The notes under the pieces are model-generated. The model had not been told where the DNA came from. It searched no databases and saw only the letters and a program-made list of their open reading frames with translations. From a virus: 21,713 nucleotides of DNA. Each line of letters begins with the position of its first letter. The stretch's first letter is position 1. The translations under genes and the position numbers were made by a program. The stretch is taken from positions 1-21,713 of the IMG/VR virus record IMGVR_UViG_3300044726_000029. One strand, given 5' to 3'. This document shows, piece by piece, positions 1-21,713 of the stretch.

Positions 1-200
1 TTGTCTTCCTCGGAGAGAGCCGCGACGTCCACCTGCGACAGGCCCTTCTTGATTGACCCCAGCACGTAGGCCACCTCGGGGTTGCTGTACAGGTGCTGCA
101 TTACTCGCTGCAGGCCCTGGTCCAACGAGTTGGCCGACGAGCCCCCCAAGCCCTCCACTGGTGGGGAGAGACTCCCCTGCTGCGAGGGGCCGCTCGACAT
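1..200 (-). CDS. Second coding frame at the left edge (new gene start or frameshifted continuation)
   Basis: From ATG 200 another frame encodes MSSGPSQQG, then a helical-looking stretch with NSLDQGLQRVMQHLYSNPEV and AYVLGSIKKGLSQVDVAALSEED, and runs off the left edge. By hand count about 88% of its third codon positions are G or C, against about 43% for the frame of the large gene over the same bases. This frame is therefore the coding one here. No ribosome site precedes ATG 200. An in-frame ATG at 305 has GGAG six bases upstream, but the intervening residues are Pro/Arg-rich and their codon bias is weak. It may be the continuation of the large gene after a +1 frame change at or near AAACCCCC (215-208), or a separate overlapping gene. 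Confidence 0.5.
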   Translation of the reverse strand, partial: MSSGPSQQGSLSPPVEGLGGSSANSLDQGLQRVMQHLYSNPEVAYVLGSIKKGLSQVDVAALSEED

Positions 201-2478
201 GAGTGAAGGGGGTTTCGTTGGTGATCCCGGCGGGCCTGCCCCGCGACCGGCGAGCGGTGAGCGGGCTGGCGGGGGTGGTGGTTGCGGACGGCGCAGTAGG
301 GGCATCGGTGACTCCAGCTTCAAGGTCAGCCATCACCTTCTGAGCAGCCTCAGACGCGACGACTTTCGGGATCTCGGCGAGCGGCACACCCGGCAATACA
401 GCCTCAAGTGCTGCTTGCGCTCGGGCGCGGGTGTTACGCTCCTTTGGGATGCTGCGCGAGATCGCCAGTAGCGCTTGCGCGAGAGGTTCTGCTCCTGCTT
501 GAGGCGACGATGCCAGCCCGTCAACTGCGTCAGCAATGAACGCTTGTCGATCATTGGGCCGCGTCCCGATTAGATCCTGCACAATCGCGCGTTGCTCGTC
601 GCTGACCAACTGGACGCCACGATCCGCCATCCACGACAGCAGGTTCTCTTCGTTGGTCATGCGCGCATCGAGATCCACCGGCTGTTCGGTGGCGAAATAC
701 GCAAGCCGCAGATCCTCCAGCTGCTCCGGCGTGCCAACACCCGGCACTCCACCAAGCAACGGCGGATTACCACGCCCTGGCGGAAGCACCGTGAGCAGCC
801 GCCCGTCACGAATGCGAAGCTCGGCACTGTCGACGGCCTGCGCGGGCTGCAGCGTGATCTCTTCGATGGGGCCAGCGAAGCCTGCGGGACCCGCGCCCAC
901 CTCCATACCGCCCGGGGGTGGGGGTTCATCCGGTGGCGTGATGTCGATGTTCTCTACGCCACGCGCCAGCCTCGCCTGATCGCGTGCAAGGTCGGGATCG
1001 CGCGGAGGTAGAATGTCAGCCGCGCCGGGTACGTCAGTGATCTCGATCGTCTCGCCAGCTTCGGGGATATCGATCGCACTGCGCCGAAGAAACGTATCTC
1101 GTGCCGCAATGTTCTCCGGCGTTGGAAGAAACGCGACGCCCTCGGAGCCCACCATCAACGTCGGATTGGGTGGAGGTGGGGGTTCTTCAGGCAGCGTCGA
1201 TGCCGCGAGATCCGCATCAGTAAAATCGTCTGGGCCTTCCTCTACAGGTGGTGTCTCCCCCGGCAACACTTGCCGCTGCTGCGGCAACAGCGAGCCGATC
1301 AATACATTCGCACCACCCGGGCCAAGCTCGCCGAACGCTTCGCCTACGATGTCACGGTAATTAAGTTGATCACCCGCCGCTACCTGCGACAGCGCTTCGC
1401 CACCCGCACCACCCACTGTCTCGCCAGCAAGCCCCGCACCCGCGAACCCCGTCGCACGACCACGGCTCCCCGCACGCGCAGCTTGCGCAGCGTACTTGCC
1501 CATGCCCAGCGAGAACGCAGACACCGCAGCATCCGCTGCACCCACCGTCAGACCCTTGGCCAGCGCTGCGTTACGGAGTTCGTTGTAAACCTCCGGGTCG
1601 TTAATCATCGCGCGCACGGCGTTCGTATCGCGCGGATCGATGCCGCGCGCCTGCGCAGCACTAGCTACACGTTCAAGGATCTGCGAACCTACCTCGACCG
1701 ACGCTGACCCCGCGCCGATACCCGCCACGCCACCAACGAGCGCACCCAGCGGACCAGCGAGCGCACCAGCACCCGCGCCACCAACGCCGCCAATCAAGCT
1801 CGGATACGACTGTGCAAACTGCTCCGCGAGGAAATTGAGCGCGCCTTCCTTCTCATCCCACGCAGCACCGGCGTACGCCTTGACTGCATCCCACAGCCCC
1901 GCCTGTGCTTCCGGCGTGCTGATCGCTTGCTGGAACCGTTGCAGCGGTGCGTTCGGACGTTGGCCCGTAGCCTGCTCGGTGACGAGCTTGGCGATGTCAT
2001 CAAGATCACCCGCGATGAGATTGCCCGTCGCCTGCTCCGCACGTGTGCCGCCCTTAACCCCGCCCGTTATCGAATCCCAGATGTTGCCGATGAATCCATT
2101 GTCGACAGCGGGAGCCTGCACCAACTGCGAGAATTGCTGAAGCTCTTGCCGGATCTCGTCGTCGCCGTACCCCATGTCACGCAGCTGCGTAGGCAATGCA
2201 ACCGTGAGGTACTCGTCATACGCCTCGTGAGGCTTGAGCTTGCCAGAAACGATGCCTTGATACGTCGGCCAGTCGACGAACTGCTCGGGATCGAGATACG
2301 TTTGCTGCTGCGGCGGAGCGACAGGCTCTGGCTCGTAGCCATACGAATCGTACTGTGATGCACGGTTGGCATCCTGCCACGACAACATATCTTGGGCCGT
2401 GAGTCCACCTGCGGCGCGATATTCCTCGCCCCACAACGACGTCTCTTCGGGTATCAGATAGTCGCGCGGATCAGGCAT
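1..2478 (-). CDS. Very large internal virion / polyvalent-type protein (3' end outside window or altered near 200)
   Basis: The frame is open from ATG 2478 to the left edge with no stop. At least the first 759 residues read as a coherent protein. Residues 60-125 are helical (WPTYQGIVSGKLKPHEAY, EIRQELQQFSQLV). Residues 195-330 hold a recognisable block: an amphipathic lead, SYPSLIGG, a Gly/Ala-rich membrane-like segment (about 228-258), then VEVGSQILERVA, GIDPRDTNAVRAMINDPE and ALAKGLTVGAADAAVSAFSLG. This block is common in giant internal or polyvalent proteins of phages. The rest alternates Pro-rich acidic linkers (EEPPPPP, DEPPPPGG) with helical segments (NEENLLSWMADRGVQLVS, VQDLIGTRPNDRQAFIADAVDGL). 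It begins eight bases inside the transglycosylase gene, after AGGGA. Codon use in this frame deteriorates after about 200. Likely an ejected protein; function unknown. Confidence 0.65.
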   Translation of the reverse strand, partial: MPDPRDYLIPEETSLWGEEYRAAGGLTAQDMLSWQDANRASQYDSYGYEPEPVAPPQQQTYLDPEQFVDWPTYQGIVSGKLKPHEAYDEYLTVALPTQLRDMGYGDDEIRQELQQFSQLVQAPAVDNGFIGNIWDSITGGVKGGTRAEQATGNLIAGDLDDIAKLVTEQATGQRPNAPLQRFQQAISTPEAQAGLWDAVKAYAGAAWDEKEGALNFLAEQFAQSYPSLIGGVGGAGAGALAGPLGALVGGVAGIGAGSASVEVGSQILERVASAAQARGIDPRDTNAVRAMINDPEVYNELRNAALAKGLTVGAADAAVSAFSLGMGKYAAQAARAGSRGRATGFAGAGLAGETVGGAGGEALSQVAAGDQLNYRDIVGEAFGELGPGGANVLIGSLLPQQRQVLPGETPPVEEGPDDFTDADLAASTLPEEPPPPPNPTLMVGSEGVAFLPTPENIAARDTFLRRSAIDIPEAGETIEITDVPGAADILPPRDPDLARDQARLARGVENIDITPPDEPPPPGGMEVGAGPAGFAGPIEEITLQPAQAVDSAELRIRDGRLLTVLPPGRGNPPLLGGVPGVGTPEQLEDLRLAYFATEQPVDLDARMTNEENLLSWMADRGVQLVSDEQRAIVQDLIGTRPNDRQAFIADAVDGLASSPQAGAEPLAQALLAISRSIPKERNTRARAQAALEAVLPGVPLAEIPKVVASEAAQKVMADLEAGVTDAPTAPSATTTPASPLTARRSRGRPAGITNETPFTHVERPLAAGESLPTSGGLGGLVGQLVGPGPAASNAAPVQQPRGGLRAGVNQEGPVAGGRRGSLRGRQ

Positions 2479-3265
2479 TCACGATGTCCCTGAACACTTC
2501 GTCGGTCATGCGTGCCAGATACTGATCGGTGTCGTCACTATTCGCTGTCTGCATCAACGGCATGTCGCCGCCCAACTCTTCGGGGATGCCCATGCTCACG
2601 CCGCCACCCACCAGCAACGGGTTGTCGTTGAACCCGCCACCACCACCTATCATCAACGGGTTGTCTTCGAACCCAGCGGGGATGCCGAAGATGTCACCAC
2701 CCGCACTCGCTCCGTGCATGAACGGAGAATCTTCGCTACGCGGTGCTGAAAGAATCAGCCCCGGAATGTCAAACGGCGCACCACCACCCATCGGGGCCGA
2801 CACATCGGTGCCCCCGCTAATCTCGTTCATCTTGGCGAGGATCTTGTTGCCATACACGCCAGTCGATGTGCCAAGCTCGTCCTTGGCATTCGGATTCGTG
2901 ACTCCGCCGGGACCACCCAGATACGCCTGCGCCATCTTGCGATAGTCACCAGCGTACCGATCACGAAGCTCCGCCATCTGCCGCAGTGCAAGATCGAGAT
3001 GTGTGTCGGGATCGTCGACATTCACCGATCCCAGCTTGTGCTTGCGGATGAGATCGGCAACCGTGTCGTCTTCCAGCTGGAATGGGCCACGCACGATCGT
3101 GCGATCGCGCTTACGCTTCACCGAACGCGCACGCATTGCATTGGGGTCGTTACCGTCCGACGACTCGACGGAGTACACCGCTTCCACGAACGCGGGATCG
3201 ATACCGTACGACTCCGCCGCTTGACGAAGTTCCTCTCGTGAGTAAGGGCGGAAGGTGCTAGGCAC
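2471..3265 (-). CDS. SLT-type lytic transglycosylase, virion-associated
   Basis: A 264-residue protein that would cleave the glycan chains of peptidoglycan, letting the phage tail or ejected proteins cross the wall. Residues about 8-122 match a soluble-lytic-transglycosylase domain. AVYSVESSDGNDPNAM contains the catalytic Glu (E34) in the usual VES context, GPFQL (60-64) corresponds to the G.MQ.. motif with Phe in place of Met, and MAQAYLGGPGGV (111-122) to the AYN.G motif. The loop between the first two motifs is basic (RSVKRKRDR). The C-terminal half (about 135-264) is Gly-rich with a repeated DNPLMIGGG / DNPLLVGGG unit, unlike a free endolysin. The GTG start is favoured by its ribosome site. 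The last eight bases overlap the next gene. Virion location is inferred from its position. Confidence 0.78.
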   Translation of the reverse strand: MPSTFRPYSREELRQAAESYGIDPAFVEAVYSVESSDGNDPNAMRARSVKRKRDRTIVRGPFQLEDDTVADLIRKHKLGSVNVDDPDTHLDLALRQMAELRDRYAGDYRKMAQAYLGGPGGVTNPNAKDELGTSTGVYGNKILAKMNEISGGTDVSAPMGGGAPFDIPGLILSAPRSEDSPFMHGASAGGDIFGIPAGFEDNPLMIGGGGGFNDNPLLVGGGVSMGIPEELGGDMPLMQTANSDDTDQYLARMTDEVFRDIVNA

Positions 3266-4655
3266 GTCCGACTCCAAACGCCTGCAACATAGCGATCACC
3301 TGATTGATGTCCATGCCACCAAGCTGCGGTGCGCCTGTATCACCAAGCCCCTCGTTAAACGACGGTGGAGGATTTTTCGAACCGCCACCGTACATCCAGT
3401 CAGGGAGCACCTGCACAGGGGGCGGCTGCGATGGCGCAGAGTACGGAGCCGGAGGACGATTGCCACCGCCCCATCCCGGTTCTGAACCGGGGCCTGATTC
3501 CCCCATCCCCGCAGCACGCCGCGCAATACTGCCGGGAGCAAACCGTGGAGCAGTTACTCGCCCGCCACCACCAGACCCAGCCATCGGCTCCCCAGTAATG
3601 GGGTTCATCATCATCCACGGTGCGTTGCCGCCACCCTGCGGACGCCCGCTATACGCTGCACTCCCTGGCGTACCACCACCACGGATGACAGAGTTCAACG
3701 ATTGGAGGTTGCGGTTAAAGAGCGCTTTAAGCTGCGCCACTTCGGCGCGCTTCTCCTCGATACGCGCCAAGTGCGCAGCCTTCGCCGCATCCTCCATCAT
3801 AGTAGTGTCAGCCCGCTCAAGCGTGCGAAGATCGGTAGCCGCACGATTCGCCTCTTGGTTGATCCGTACACCCTCGCTATTCAGGTGGTTGAATACCTGC
3901 TTCGGATCGATCCTCCCTTCCTGCATCGCTTTCATCATCTGTGCATTGGCCGCCTGGATCGCAATCATCTCCTTGATACCGCGATCCTCCGCACCCGCCA
4001 CGCCGCCCGTGCCTGCGAGCCGGTCATACAGCTTCGTCATCTGATCCCCCGGCACTGGTGTCATCTCGCCGTTGGAGTCGATCACGACGACCGTGCCATC
4101 TGACATACGCTTCACGGTGGCCCCAGGGTCCTTCTGGCGCACGAACTGCTGTAGGTGCTCCAGCGCAGCCTGCTCGTTGAGATTGCGGTTCTCGATGCCG
4201 GGGATACCCATCTTGTCGTACGCCGTGGTAGCTGCCGATGGGTCATACATCGACATCGCTTCAGCGAGCCACTCGCGATACTCCGGCGTTCCCGGCGTCC
4301 ACCCCGTCTCCTTCAACCCCTGCTGGAACGCGCCCTCGGGATCGGAGAGATACTGCGCGAGCGCAAGCTGCTGTTGCTGCCCGTAGATGTCGCGCTCGCC
4401 CGATGCGATCTTCTGCCGGTACCCGGTATCCTCGGCACCGATCTTGTTGCCGTAGTAGCCATAATCGGTGCCACCCTCACGCGCGTACTGCATGAGTTCC
4501 AGATCACGGTTGCCGATCTCGGAGCGATCGTTGGCGAGATCCTTGCTGCGAATACCCTCCCACGTGCTGAACGGAGCCATGCCCGCGTCGATACCCTTGA
4601 CGACGCCCGAAAGCCCGCCACTGATCCCTGTAAGCCAGTCGTCCCAGTCAGCCAT
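3258..4655 (-). CDS. Putative internal virion protein, helical, with Gly/Pro-rich tail
   Basis: A 465-residue protein. Residues 1-325 are mostly helical, with GISGGLSGVVKGIDAGMA at the N-terminus and long Ala/Glu/Gln-rich helices at about 222-325 (IKEMIAIQAANAQMMKAMQEG, DAAKAAHLARIEEKRAEVAQLKALF in part). The rest is Gly/Pro-rich and contains NPITGEPMAG (351-360) and GPGSEPGWGG (388-397), shared with the upstream gene. AGGAG six bases before the ATG overlaps the upstream stop. The final seven bases or so overlap the ribosome-binding region and start of the transglycosylase gene. A structural core or ejection protein is likely by position and composition. No named family is recognised. Confidence 0.58.
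   Translation of the reverse strand: MADWDDWLTGISGGLSGVVKGIDAGMAPFSTWEGIRSKDLANDRSEIGNRDLELMQYAREGGTDYGYYGNKIGAEDTGYRQKIASGERDIYGQQQQLALAQYLSDPEGAFQQGLKETGWTPGTPEYREWLAEAMSMYDPSAATTAYDKMGIPGIENRNLNEQAALEHLQQFVRQKDPGATVKRMSDGTVVVIDSNGEMTPVPGDQMTKLYDRLAGTGGVAGAEDRGIKEMIAIQAANAQMMKAMQEGRIDPKQVFNHLNSEGVRINQEANRAATDLRTLERADTTMMEDAAKAAHLARIEEKRAEVAQLKALFNRNLQSLNSVIRGGGTPGSAAYSGRPQGGGNAPWMMMNPITGEPMAGSGGGGRVTAPRFAPGSIARRAAGMGESGPGSEPGWGGGNRPPAPYSAPSQPPPVQVLPDWMYGGGSKNPPPSFNEGLGDTGAPQLGGMDINQVIAMLQAFGVGRA
3272..3275 (-). promoter_or_regulatory. Shine-Dalgarno GGAG favouring GTG 3265
   Basis: GGAG is six bases before GTG 3265. The alternative TTG at 3277 would place this site within the gene and has no clear site of its own. 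Confidence 0.5.
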
Positions 4656-15614: not shown

Positions 15615-16700
15615 TCAGGGGAGCGCCAGCACCTTCGCTCGGGCCTGCACGTAACCCAGGGTGGCCGTGACCGGGGTGATGCCAGGGCTATGCTCGAACC
15701 GCGCCAGCAGCTGCATGGTGTCAGGAGGGACGTTGATAACCGGAGTACCAGTAGCGTCAGGCACCGACGTGTCCAAGCGACGCACGCGGTATGTGATGTC
15801 TGCACCGTTACCAGGACAGGTAAGTGTGAAACGCACGTACGTCCCGTTAGTTTTGGGGAAGTTCGAGCCCAAATCGATCTTGTTGGCACTGGCCGGAGTC
15901 ACACTTCCCGCGTGAAAAATCTGCAGGTTAGTGTCAGTGGAATCTGCAGCCAACGTGAATATGCCGACACGCGCTGACGGCTCGCTAGCGCCCATCCCCT
16001 GCTGCCCAAACATGAGCCCCAGCAGCAGCTTCAGCGTCGATGGTACAGATACAAGAGCGAAGTCAATGTAGATCTCGAACCCGCCCTGCCCTGTAGTGCT
16101 ACCCCCGCCCCGCCAGAACACCTTGTTGCTGAGTCCGGTGAGATTGAACGTTATCTCGTTGTTAGGGCCGATCGGGCTGATAACCGCAACATACCCACGA
16201 CTGCCCAGCGCAGACCCAGCACTCGCAGCAACGATATCGACCGACGTAATCCCTGCGATAAACCCAGCATGATTACCGAAATTCCATGACGTGTAGCCCA
16301 TAAGGCCACCGTCCCAGATGTCGCGCCCGTCGCCGCCCGTACCCGCCGCACCTGTCGCACCTGTCGCACCTGTCGCACCTGTCGCGCCCGTAGCACCAGT
16401 GACTGGAGATCCTGCCCCTGTAGGGCCAGTGGCACCCGTAGCACCAGTCGCACCCGTAGGACCCGTCGCAGTGGATGCAGCACCTGTAGGACCCGTCGCA
16501 CCCGTAGGACCTGTCGCACCTGTGTCACCACCATCGGGACCAGTAGGGCCTGTTGCACCCGTAAGACCCGTAGGACCCGTAGGACCTATGGCACCAGCAG
16601 TCGACGTTGGGCCAGTCGGTCCGGTGGGGCCAGTTACACCTGTAGCGCCTGTCGGGCCACCAACATCGCCACAATCATCGCGCCGCGTCGTAATAGGCAT
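15615..16700 (-). CDS. Collagen-like fibre protein (paralogue 2)
   Basis: A 361-residue protein with a short N-terminus ([14 protein letters not shown]), a collagen-like tract at residues about 14-123, and a C-terminal domain at about 128-361. That domain aligns by eye with the preceding gene: [44 protein letters not shown] and LGYVQA. The first cysteine-rich block of the paralogue is reduced here to one cysteine. The collagen tract contains a run of four exact 9-base repeats, which makes length variation by slippage possible. The ATG follows the upstream stop without any gap, so translation is probably coupled. This is the last gene of the fibre cassette. After its TGA comes a 113-base gap that holds a promoter candidate. 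Confidence 0.7.
16332..16661 (-). repeat. Collagen-like Gly-X-Y tract (paralogue 2)
   Basis: About 36 triplets, mostly GPT and GAT, with breaks at [18 protein letters not shown] and AGSPVT. It includes the exact 9-base tandem repeat at 16348-16383. Confidence 0.85.
16348..16383 (-). repeat. Exact 9-bp tandem repeat, four copies
   Basis: On the plus strand the unit gcacctgtc is repeated four times without change. It encodes part of a GAT-GAT-GAT run in the collagen tract. The neighbouring triplets use varied codons, so this segment is the most homogeneous and probably the youngest part of the tract. Gain or loss of a unit keeps the frame. Confidence 0.85.
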
Positions 16701-17828
16701 CTAGCCGACCGGCGCGAACCACGTGAACGCCTGCACATACCCCATCATTGCGTCAGCTGCAGTGGCACCATTGCCATGCCGCAGCCAGCAATTCATGAAC
16801 GTCGTAGTACTGGGGATGTTCGATGCAGGCGAGCTACCCGCATCAGTCACGCTGGCGTCGAGTCGATGCACGTTGTATGAGATCACCGCGCCATTGCCCA
16901 AGCACACGAACGACAGCCGCACGTAGACGCCAGTTGACTTGGGAAAGTTGCCACCAAGATCCGCCTTGGTACACGCGCCCGACGCGTCGTTGTACATGAT
17001 CTGCAGGTTCGCGTCACCCGAATCCGCGCCAAGGAAGATACAGTTGACATTCGCCGATGGCTCAAACGTTGCCCCTAGCGGGGGCGCTACGCCTGTCGCA
17101 AAAAGCCCGCAGGCAATCTTCATCGTCGACTGCGCCTGCACGATCGCAAGATCGATATCGAGTTCCCACACCCCGCGATCTACCGCATCCCCGCGCCACC
17201 ACATGGGGTTGAGCAGCGTATTGATCGCACCACCGGCATCGCTCTGAGATACCGCCCCCGTGGTGATCCGCATGTACCCGCTGTTCAACAGCGCGCTACC
17301 TGCGTCTGACGCGATCAGTGTGCCGCTCGGAAAATTCTGCAAAATACCGAAGTTAGCGCCTGCGTTCCACGTCGTATACCCAATCAACGAACCGTCCCAG
17401 AGAATCCCTGGTGAGCCCGTAGCACCCGTGGCACCCGTAACACCTGTCGGCCCGGTAGCACCCGTCGGACCCGGCACACCCGACGCGCCACCCGTCGGCC
17501 CAGTGGGGCCAGTGGCACCCGTCGCACCTGTAATCGTGGACGCAGCACCAGTAGGCCCGGTCGCACCTGTAGGACCAGTCGGGCCTGTGGGGCCGGTATC
17601 GCCACCACCCGGACCAGCAGCGCCCGTGGGGCCCGTTGCGCCCGTTGCGCCAGTAGGACCAGTGGGTCCCGGTATATCGGAGCCAGCGCCAGTGGGGCCC
17701 GTCGGCCCTGCAGGACCCGTGGGGCCCGTCGCACCAACAGGAGCTTGGCAGCACTCGCTGCATTCACCACACCCACCGCACAACGGAGAAGGCGGCGCGC
17801 AACTGGTTCGGCGTGTGTTGATGGCCAT
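16701..17828 (-). CDS. Collagen-like fibre protein with Cys-rich N-terminus (paralogue 1)
   Basis: A 375-residue protein. The N-terminus carries six cysteines within residues 10-27 (pattern [11 protein letters not shown] at 17-27), which could cross-link a trimer or bind metal. Residues about 32-141 are a collagen-like Gly-X-Y tract with short breaks. Residues about 143-375 are a globular C-terminal domain beginning [12 protein letters not shown] and containing [32 protein letters not shown] and a closing MMGYVQAF. Every one of these has a counterpart in the next gene, so the two are tandem paralogues. The start MAINTRR also resembles MPITTRR of the neighbour. The stop codon TAG abuts the next ATG directly. 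The likely role is a trimeric virion fibre with a receptor-binding or trimerising head, inferred from architecture only. Confidence 0.7.
17406..17735 (-). repeat. Collagen-like Gly-X-Y tract (paralogue 1)
   Basis: About 36 Gly-X-Y triplets with breaks at AGSDIP, AASTIT and GASGVP. Codons vary, so this is a protein-level repeat more than an exact DNA repeat. Confidence 0.85.

Positions 17829-19409: not shown

Positions 19410-19410
<1 letters not shown>
18628..19410 (-). CDS. LamG / concanavalin A-like jelly-roll appendage protein
   Basis: This 260-residue protein is probably a carbohydrate-binding virion protein. After a Gln/His-rich N-terminus (residues about 1-30), the sequence DPYFGNVVNLTTFDGANG..TTF opens a LamG-like jelly roll. 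It continues with QGDFTLEMSMMVRD, DAWHKHAVVRSG...YFIDG and closes with FANFRYTKGVGRYTANYTPATGPFP. This order, and especially the closing RYTKGVGRYTANYTP signature, matches the concanavalin A-like lectin/glucanase domains common in phage fibres. No glycosidase active site is evident, so binding is likelier than hydrolysis. The start shares one base with the upstream stop (TAATG), though only a weak GGGG purine run precedes it. It is the only one of the five appendage genes without a collagen tract. Confidence 0.78.

Positions 19411-21713
<2,303 letters not shown>

Follow-up and report, generated by a model that had tools for sequence, protein, structure and literature searches.

The left end of the viral contig analyzed here raises the question of how two overlapping frames of the same strand should be read, i.e., as one giant gene that changes frame or as two genes that share DNA. 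The window, which is the whole viral record of 21,713 bases, contains a podophage-like virion module with genes for an internal virion protein (phrog_511), a major head protein, tail fibres, and a transglycosylase, and its left end holds the 5' part of a giant virion gene (Table 1). A first-pass annotation had described an abrupt switch of coding frame in this gene near position 200 and had offered three readings: a sequencing indel in a C-run, a programmed +1 frameshift, and an unusually long gene overlap. Based on comparisons with related contigs, the giant gene very probably keeps its frame, and a separate small +1 gene with its own ATG at 305, the coordinate at which the flagged region had ended, lies inside it. 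Long overlap was therefore the closest of the three options, but with one gene nested inside the giant gene rather than two successive genes overlapping.

Coding signal at the left end of the window

Along the giant frame (minus strand, 2478 to 1), third-position G+C is 0.652 in codons 1 to 725, 0.80 in codons 726 to 760, and 0.44 in the last 66 codons, while the minimum for 66 codons inside codons 1 to 725 is 0.52. The drop described previously was thus reproduced, and the starting level of about 80% given for it applies to the 35 codons from 726 to 760 but not to the whole fragment (0.64). In agreement with the reported rise of another frame to about 88%, the +1 frame has a third-position G+C of 0.88 over 200 to 1, and, as also stated, neither the giant frame nor the +1 frame contains a stop codon over this stretch. 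Codon log-odds, for which 16 other window genes served as the training set, were calculated in 99-base steps; they are negative in the giant frame at every step from 333 down to 4 and positive in the +1 frame from 201 down. We considered a chimera at the contig end and set it aside; the synonymous codon choice of the +1 frame fits that of window genes (−1.55 compared to a mean of −1.54, SD 0.25, for 265 segments), though T-ending codons are scarcer in it (3% versus 20%). The C-run reported at the switch, AAACCCCCTTC, is present, and ACCCCC occurs 18 times in the window compared to 13.75 expected.

The putative nested gene has a start codon and a ribosome-binding-type motif ahead of it (Table 1), and it is located in a Pro/Ala/Gly-rich linker of the giant, ahead of the HExxH motif. 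Its stop codon is expected roughly 20 to 40 codons beyond the contig edge. The N terminus of the predicted protein is Pro/Arg-rich. In an AlphaFold2 model of the window peptide based on the single sequence (mean pLDDT 68.5; pTM 0.27), helices were predicted at residues 57 to 73 and 76 to 90 with no secondary structure before them, and pLDDT was 82 to 88 in blocks of residues 61 to 90.

The window also contains three tail fibre genes (15615-17828 and 19410-21050, minus strand) with collagen-like family matches and tandem arrays of 9- to 84-nt units. The Gly/Ala-rich membrane-like domain of the giant is shared with the giants of ctfjg026 (phmmer E 5.6e-11) and, more weakly, D14S (domain E 0.00037), and it lies in the N-terminal part of all three proteins.

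Table 1 Features of the window and nested ORFs of its two relatives
Feature	Positions	Strand	Basis or remark
Putative nested +1 gene, ATG at 305-303, 101 codons to contig edge	1..305	-	similar complete +1 ORFs in G004 and G005
GGAG, Shine-Dalgarno-like, 6 nt ahead of nested ATG	312..315	-	
Last upstream nested-frame stop, TGA	333..335	-	
Conserved helical part of predicted nested protein, SNPEVAYVL motif	36..137	-	AlphaFold2 model; relatives z 8.0-14.9
ACCCCC run named in the first-pass annotation	208..213	-	candidate slip site in frameshift reading only
Giant virion gene, 5' 826 codons (large polyvalent, DarB-like)	1..2478	-	open frame; 3' side off contig
Gly/Ala-rich membrane-like domain of giant protein	1288..1797	-	phmmer
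Upstream gene, SLT transglycosylase-like virion protein	2471..3277	-	PF01464, 33.8 bits
Nested +1 ORF of G004, complete, 122 aa	33362-32994		
Nested +1 ORF of G005 (L114), complete, 139 aa	26192-25773		

Two relatives carry a complete +1 ORF inside a continuing giant frame

Direct searches with the giant fragment identified no relative in viral contigs, phages, genome contigs, or plasmids, and the 66-residue +1 peptide identified none in viral contigs or phages. A 42-residue piece of the +1 peptide had one match at E values up to 10, which we attribute to chance, and matches of the +1 peptide to L029 and L085 were discarded as low-complexity. An alignment of internal virion proteins detected at least 80 distant loci, none with a relative of the giant or the +1 peptide among those listed; its close-clade version detected nothing in genome contigs, and scans with the transglycosylase, a g3258 alignment, and a membrane-domain alignment added no new contig. 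In one locus (L004, 5582-7335), the internal virion protein homolog is split over two frames, likely due to a sequencing or assembly indel. The relatives were reached through the major capsid protein, which is 91-98% identical in three related contigs and from which a capsid alignment led to 16 loci. Only this alignment led to G004 (60,656 bases) and G005 (51,605 bases), the two among 13 records searched in which the giant gene was reached.

The giant frame of the window aligns with that of G004 up to residue 817, across the overlap, and the G004 frame continues past the disputed stretch and reaches an HExxH motif (LHEYVHAA, identified by visual inspection). The window +1 peptide matches the same G004 DNA (44%, E 1.3e-6), where the +1 frame then ends at a stop. 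In G004, frame breaks occur at other places of the giant gene and in the transglycosylase gene, and G005 therefore represents the firmer case. The G005 giant forms one uninterrupted frame of 2392 codons, which includes an HExxH motif (LHEVTHAG) and encloses a complete +1 ORF; this argues against the described frame switch of the giant gene. The G005 giant contains LPD38 (PF18857, 58 bits compared to a cut-off of 27) and matches the DarB-like phrog_10089 and phrog_14770, and it is for this relative that the large polyvalent/DarB-like assignment holds, the window fragment alone having only weak profile matches (phrog_32588, E 2.1e-5). Thus, the ORFs of G004 and G005 are fully enclosed by a gene that uses a different frame of the same strand, while the copy of the window is truncated at the 3' end. 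The observation proposed beforehand as refuting the switch, a stop in the large frame just past the contig edge, has no counterpart in the relatives, in which the giant frame is open and the +1 frame stops instead.

The nested ATG is preceded by GGAG in the window, AAGGAGGT in G004, and GAGG in G005. In the window and G004, it is at the same giant-frame site, GVT[DN]A; the G005 ATG is tied to the others only by a short T-N-A and by the nested protein, as the giant frame is unalignable there. Among the sequences searched, this nested family has three members, and none was found in annotated phages. The G005 giant has a second +1 ORF in a Gly-rich linker (L114, ~26684-26400, minus strand; MLPINVLISAVMQAI..., 95 aa, AGGA before the ATG), which was not seen in the window.

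The nested frame is conserved beyond the giant frame

To compare the two frames, similarity was expressed as the z of the local alignment score versus shuffles. For the pairs window-G004, window-G005, and G004-G005, z was 11.4, 7.0, and 10.0, respectively, in the nested frame and 8.7, 1.2, and −0.1 in the giant frame of the same DNA; the values of 1.2 and −0.1 support that only the nested frame is conserved in the two G005 pairs. Conservation of the nested protein beyond the host frame was found for these two pairs and for other nested families (see below). The helical part is conserved between relatives (z 8.0 to 14.9), and the N-terminal third is barely above shuffles (z 1.4 to 2.5; equaled by 51, 18, and 99 of 1,000 shuffles); the ATG at 305 is therefore supported only by its start codon and upstream motif. 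In the nested-frame alignments, differences increase in the order codon position 2, 1, 3 in all three pairs. For window-G004, this contrast is small (0.45, 0.43, and 0.53 at positions 1 to 3), and alignment on the nested frame favors the nested frame.

Out-of-frame ORFs in the giant genes of other phages

Scanning 123 long frames with a lax cut yielded 29 segments, of which 11 were kept as nested candidates; the other 18 (antisense frames, frame-start segments, tail fibre and portal genes, and the break in G004) were set aside. Six of 10 annotated giants contain +1 ORFs that outscore the host frame by codon score. These belong to family A (MTETQ...) in BcepIL02, CSP3, and DC1, family B (MNLN...) in SopranoGao, the only one of the annotated giants scanned with this family, and family C (MYQVP...) in Parlo and Skulduggery. 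No +1 ORF was called in the giants of Vibrio 252E42.2, Vibrio 1F273_PE002, ctfjg026, and D14S; in D14S, a 69-codon +1 segment passes at a scoring length of 40 codons (0.37) and fails at 50.

A tblastn search with family B returned 21 records from 12 phages with Klebsiella, Erwinia, Pseudomonas, Vibrio, Sinorhizobium, Ochrobactrum, Agrobacterium, and Microcystis as hosts. All 11 phages read (SJM3 was left out) contain family B: as a nested +1 ORF in a giant that is open over the stretch examined in 10 phages, and as an in-frame fusion in Sinorhizobium phage PBC5. In PBC5 (L124, 7955-8309), a change of the giant frame ~45 nt ahead of the nested ATG places the N-terminal half and the nested protein in one frame, as gp22; a sequencing error and a natural variant are both conceivable. 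Itty13 (L005) carries family B in an unannotated plus-strand frame (locus orientation). We note that this frame has 4112 codons (25580-37915, plus strand) and that the opposite strand has three long annotated CDS. In the phage records opened, no separate nested CDS is annotated.

Based on the order of Pfam matches, families A and B are located well after an N-terminal SLT domain and before an Eco57I-like methylase match (below cut-off in BcepIL02), and family C is located well after the SLT domain and before a helicase match. Conserved sequence starts at the ATG in families A to C, and in five family B phages, the third codon before the ATG is a nested-frame stop. Profile-to-profile comparison of families A to E and two single ORFs (21 pairs) gave near similarity only for A-B (E 0.00097, probability 22%), and we therefore claim no single origin. 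A match of family B to TnpV (PF14198) was rejected, as its 15.7 and 17.7 bits are below the Pfam cut-off of 27.

Further +1 ORFs were observed in long frames. L049 (16473), L039 (10515), and L024 (16816) have a common one (MENCNC.../MNHNSNC...) with AGGAG-like motifs before the ATG, and Parlo (L117, 25961), L045 (20777), and L087 (17881) have single candidates, those of Parlo and L045 without a Shine-Dalgarno-like motif. Three Lessievirus giants have a second +1 segment (codons 797-908 in CSP3 [L115]; ~900-1018 in L006 and L116) that outscores the host frame by codon score (0.56 to 1.38), but its translation is Arg- and Pro-rich.

Controls for the nested ORFs

We shuffled synonymous codons in 18 giants, 200 times each, and found that the observed +1 score was reached by none of the 200 shuffles in 16 giants. 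Two of these 16, 252E42.2 and D14S, had negative observed scores and were not called, leaving 14 giants called, while the scores of 1F273_PE002 and ctfjg026 were reached by 32 and 20 shuffles, respectively. The 14 of 18 does not represent a frequency because eight giants (six family B phages, Itty13, and G005) were chosen knowing of the nested ORF, and BcepIL02 and Skulduggery had already been found in the long-frame scan. For G005, the top segment in this test is its second nested ORF, not the ORF of the window's family. Among 37 non-giant genes, one (the BcepIL02 portal gene) passed the lax cut.

GGAG, GAGG, or AGGA precedes all 17 nested ATGs compared to 110 of 1,497 +1-frame ATGs in 19 giants, with the motif chosen after the starts had been seen, with related phages repeating sequence, and with PBC5 and POI1126 outside the 17. 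For seven further +1 candidates, a Shine-Dalgarno-like motif is present in five and absent in two. In nine of nine phage pairs, of which the three family A pairs have few differences, differences at giant codon position 1 exceed those at position 3 inside the overlap, and the reverse is true in the flanks. In the same nine pairs, the giant third position accounts for a smaller share of the differences within the overlap than in the flanks (0.15 versus 0.71 for SopranoGao-LASTA), and changes in the overlap are shifted to the nested third position. In all 45 family B pairs, the nested frame is more similar than the giant frame.

Alternative readings of the overlap

The programmed +1 frameshift proposed earlier is, in our opinion, an unlikely, minor rival of a separate nested gene. 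Slippage in the Pro-rich linker, e.g., at a CCC in a C-run, would generate a shorter form in which the N-terminal part of the giant is joined to the helical tail. C-runs of at least 5 bases are indeed present in the overlap in all three relatives (2, 3, and 3 runs), and the window run ACC CCC TTC aligns in the giant frame with GCC CCC ATT of G004; however, Pro-rich linkers carry C-runs anyway, and no matching run can be assigned in G005. The poorly conserved nested N terminus and the PBC5 fusion are also in agreement with a frameshift, but conservation of families A to C from the ATG, the stop closely ahead of it in five family B phages, and the Shine-Dalgarno-like motifs in the window, G004, and G005 argue for initiation at the ATG. 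Moreover, the 96 bases of the window starting with AAACCCCC showed no excess RNA folding (z −0.57 versus shuffles).

A sequencing or assembly indel that breaks one continuous protein would fit a site ~200 bases from the contig end and beside a homopolymer, and frame breaks do occur in related contigs (L004 and G004). Nevertheless, we consider an indel, including the C-run indel suggested originally, highly improbable: the same two open frames are found in three different contigs, and a stop closes the +1 frame of both G004 and G005 at a point beyond which the giant frame continues. Conservation of the nested frame without conservation of the giant frame in the G005 pairs makes both an indel and a tandem overlap unlikely. 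The same conservation argues against a by-product, in which base composition together with giant-frame conservation would account for the +1 ORF and no gene would exist; so does the codon score of the G005 ORF of the window's family, which is 0.70 over the host frame compared to a maximum of 0.38 in 200 synonymous shuffles. High-G+C DNA often contains long +1 ORFs, and the window-G004 pair combines high giant-frame similarity with a weak codon-position contrast; nonetheless, we regard a by-product as the least probable of these readings.

Implications and comparison with known systems

If the +1 ORF is a separate gene, some ribosomes would start internally at the nested ATG on the giant mRNA, and others would read the giant frame straight through. 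The product would comprise ~120 to 140 residues with a Pro/Arg-rich N terminus predicted to be unstructured and a helical C-terminal part. We infer internal initiation and translation of the nested ORF, and our best guess is that each nested product is a small helical protein with its own initiation site and perhaps a partner of the giant. That they act with the giant ejected protein, e.g., as a chaperone, packaging partner, or inhibitor, is conceivable but doubtful. Tentatively, and as a speculation of only slightly better standing, DarB-like giants of many podophages, with hosts from Klebsiella to Microcystis, may repeatedly carry an out-of-frame gene in a linker before the methylase, helicase, or HExxH part, with independent families serving the giant in enzyme silencing or packaging and needing the same message.

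Should the nested products be real, every giant ejected protein may have a companion from the same message. This would provide a handle on how proteins of 2400 to 4700 residues are kept inactive, packaged, or injected, and the recurrence would offer natural replicates for the origin of new genes by overprinting in linkers. Because ORFs enclosed by larger genes tend to be discarded during gene calling, a conserved protein can be missed in sequenced phages, e.g., BcepIL02 and LASTA.

DarB-like and large polyvalent proteins are the subject of Iyer et al. (2017; PMC5512222). The giant host gene is grouped with these proteins by LPD38 in the G005 giant and by the SLT, helicase, and methylase matches of the annotated giants. 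The available portions of that article mention no out-of-frame gene inside large polyvalent proteins and use "nested" of a hairpin only, and the available portions of PMC9144972 contain nothing on a nested gene in giants. While nested genes are of a known kind, we found neither a nested gene within DarB-like giants nor the repeated presence of such genes in their linkers described in the accessible part of the openly licensed literature.

Programmed frameshift products that use two frames of one gene are known for dnaX and prfB. The locus described here would similarly use two frames within one gene, but the nested ORF has its own ATG and a Shine-Dalgarno-like motif, and a candidate slip site aligns only between the window and G004. 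Nested (overprinted) viral genes are known as well, such as Rz1 inside Rz and E inside D of phiX174. The ORFs described here resemble these in that a complete small, putative out-of-frame gene with its own start lies inside another gene. They differ in that the host is a polyvalent virion gene of 2400 to 4700 codons and in that several nested families, mutually without detectable similarity, are located in its linkers.
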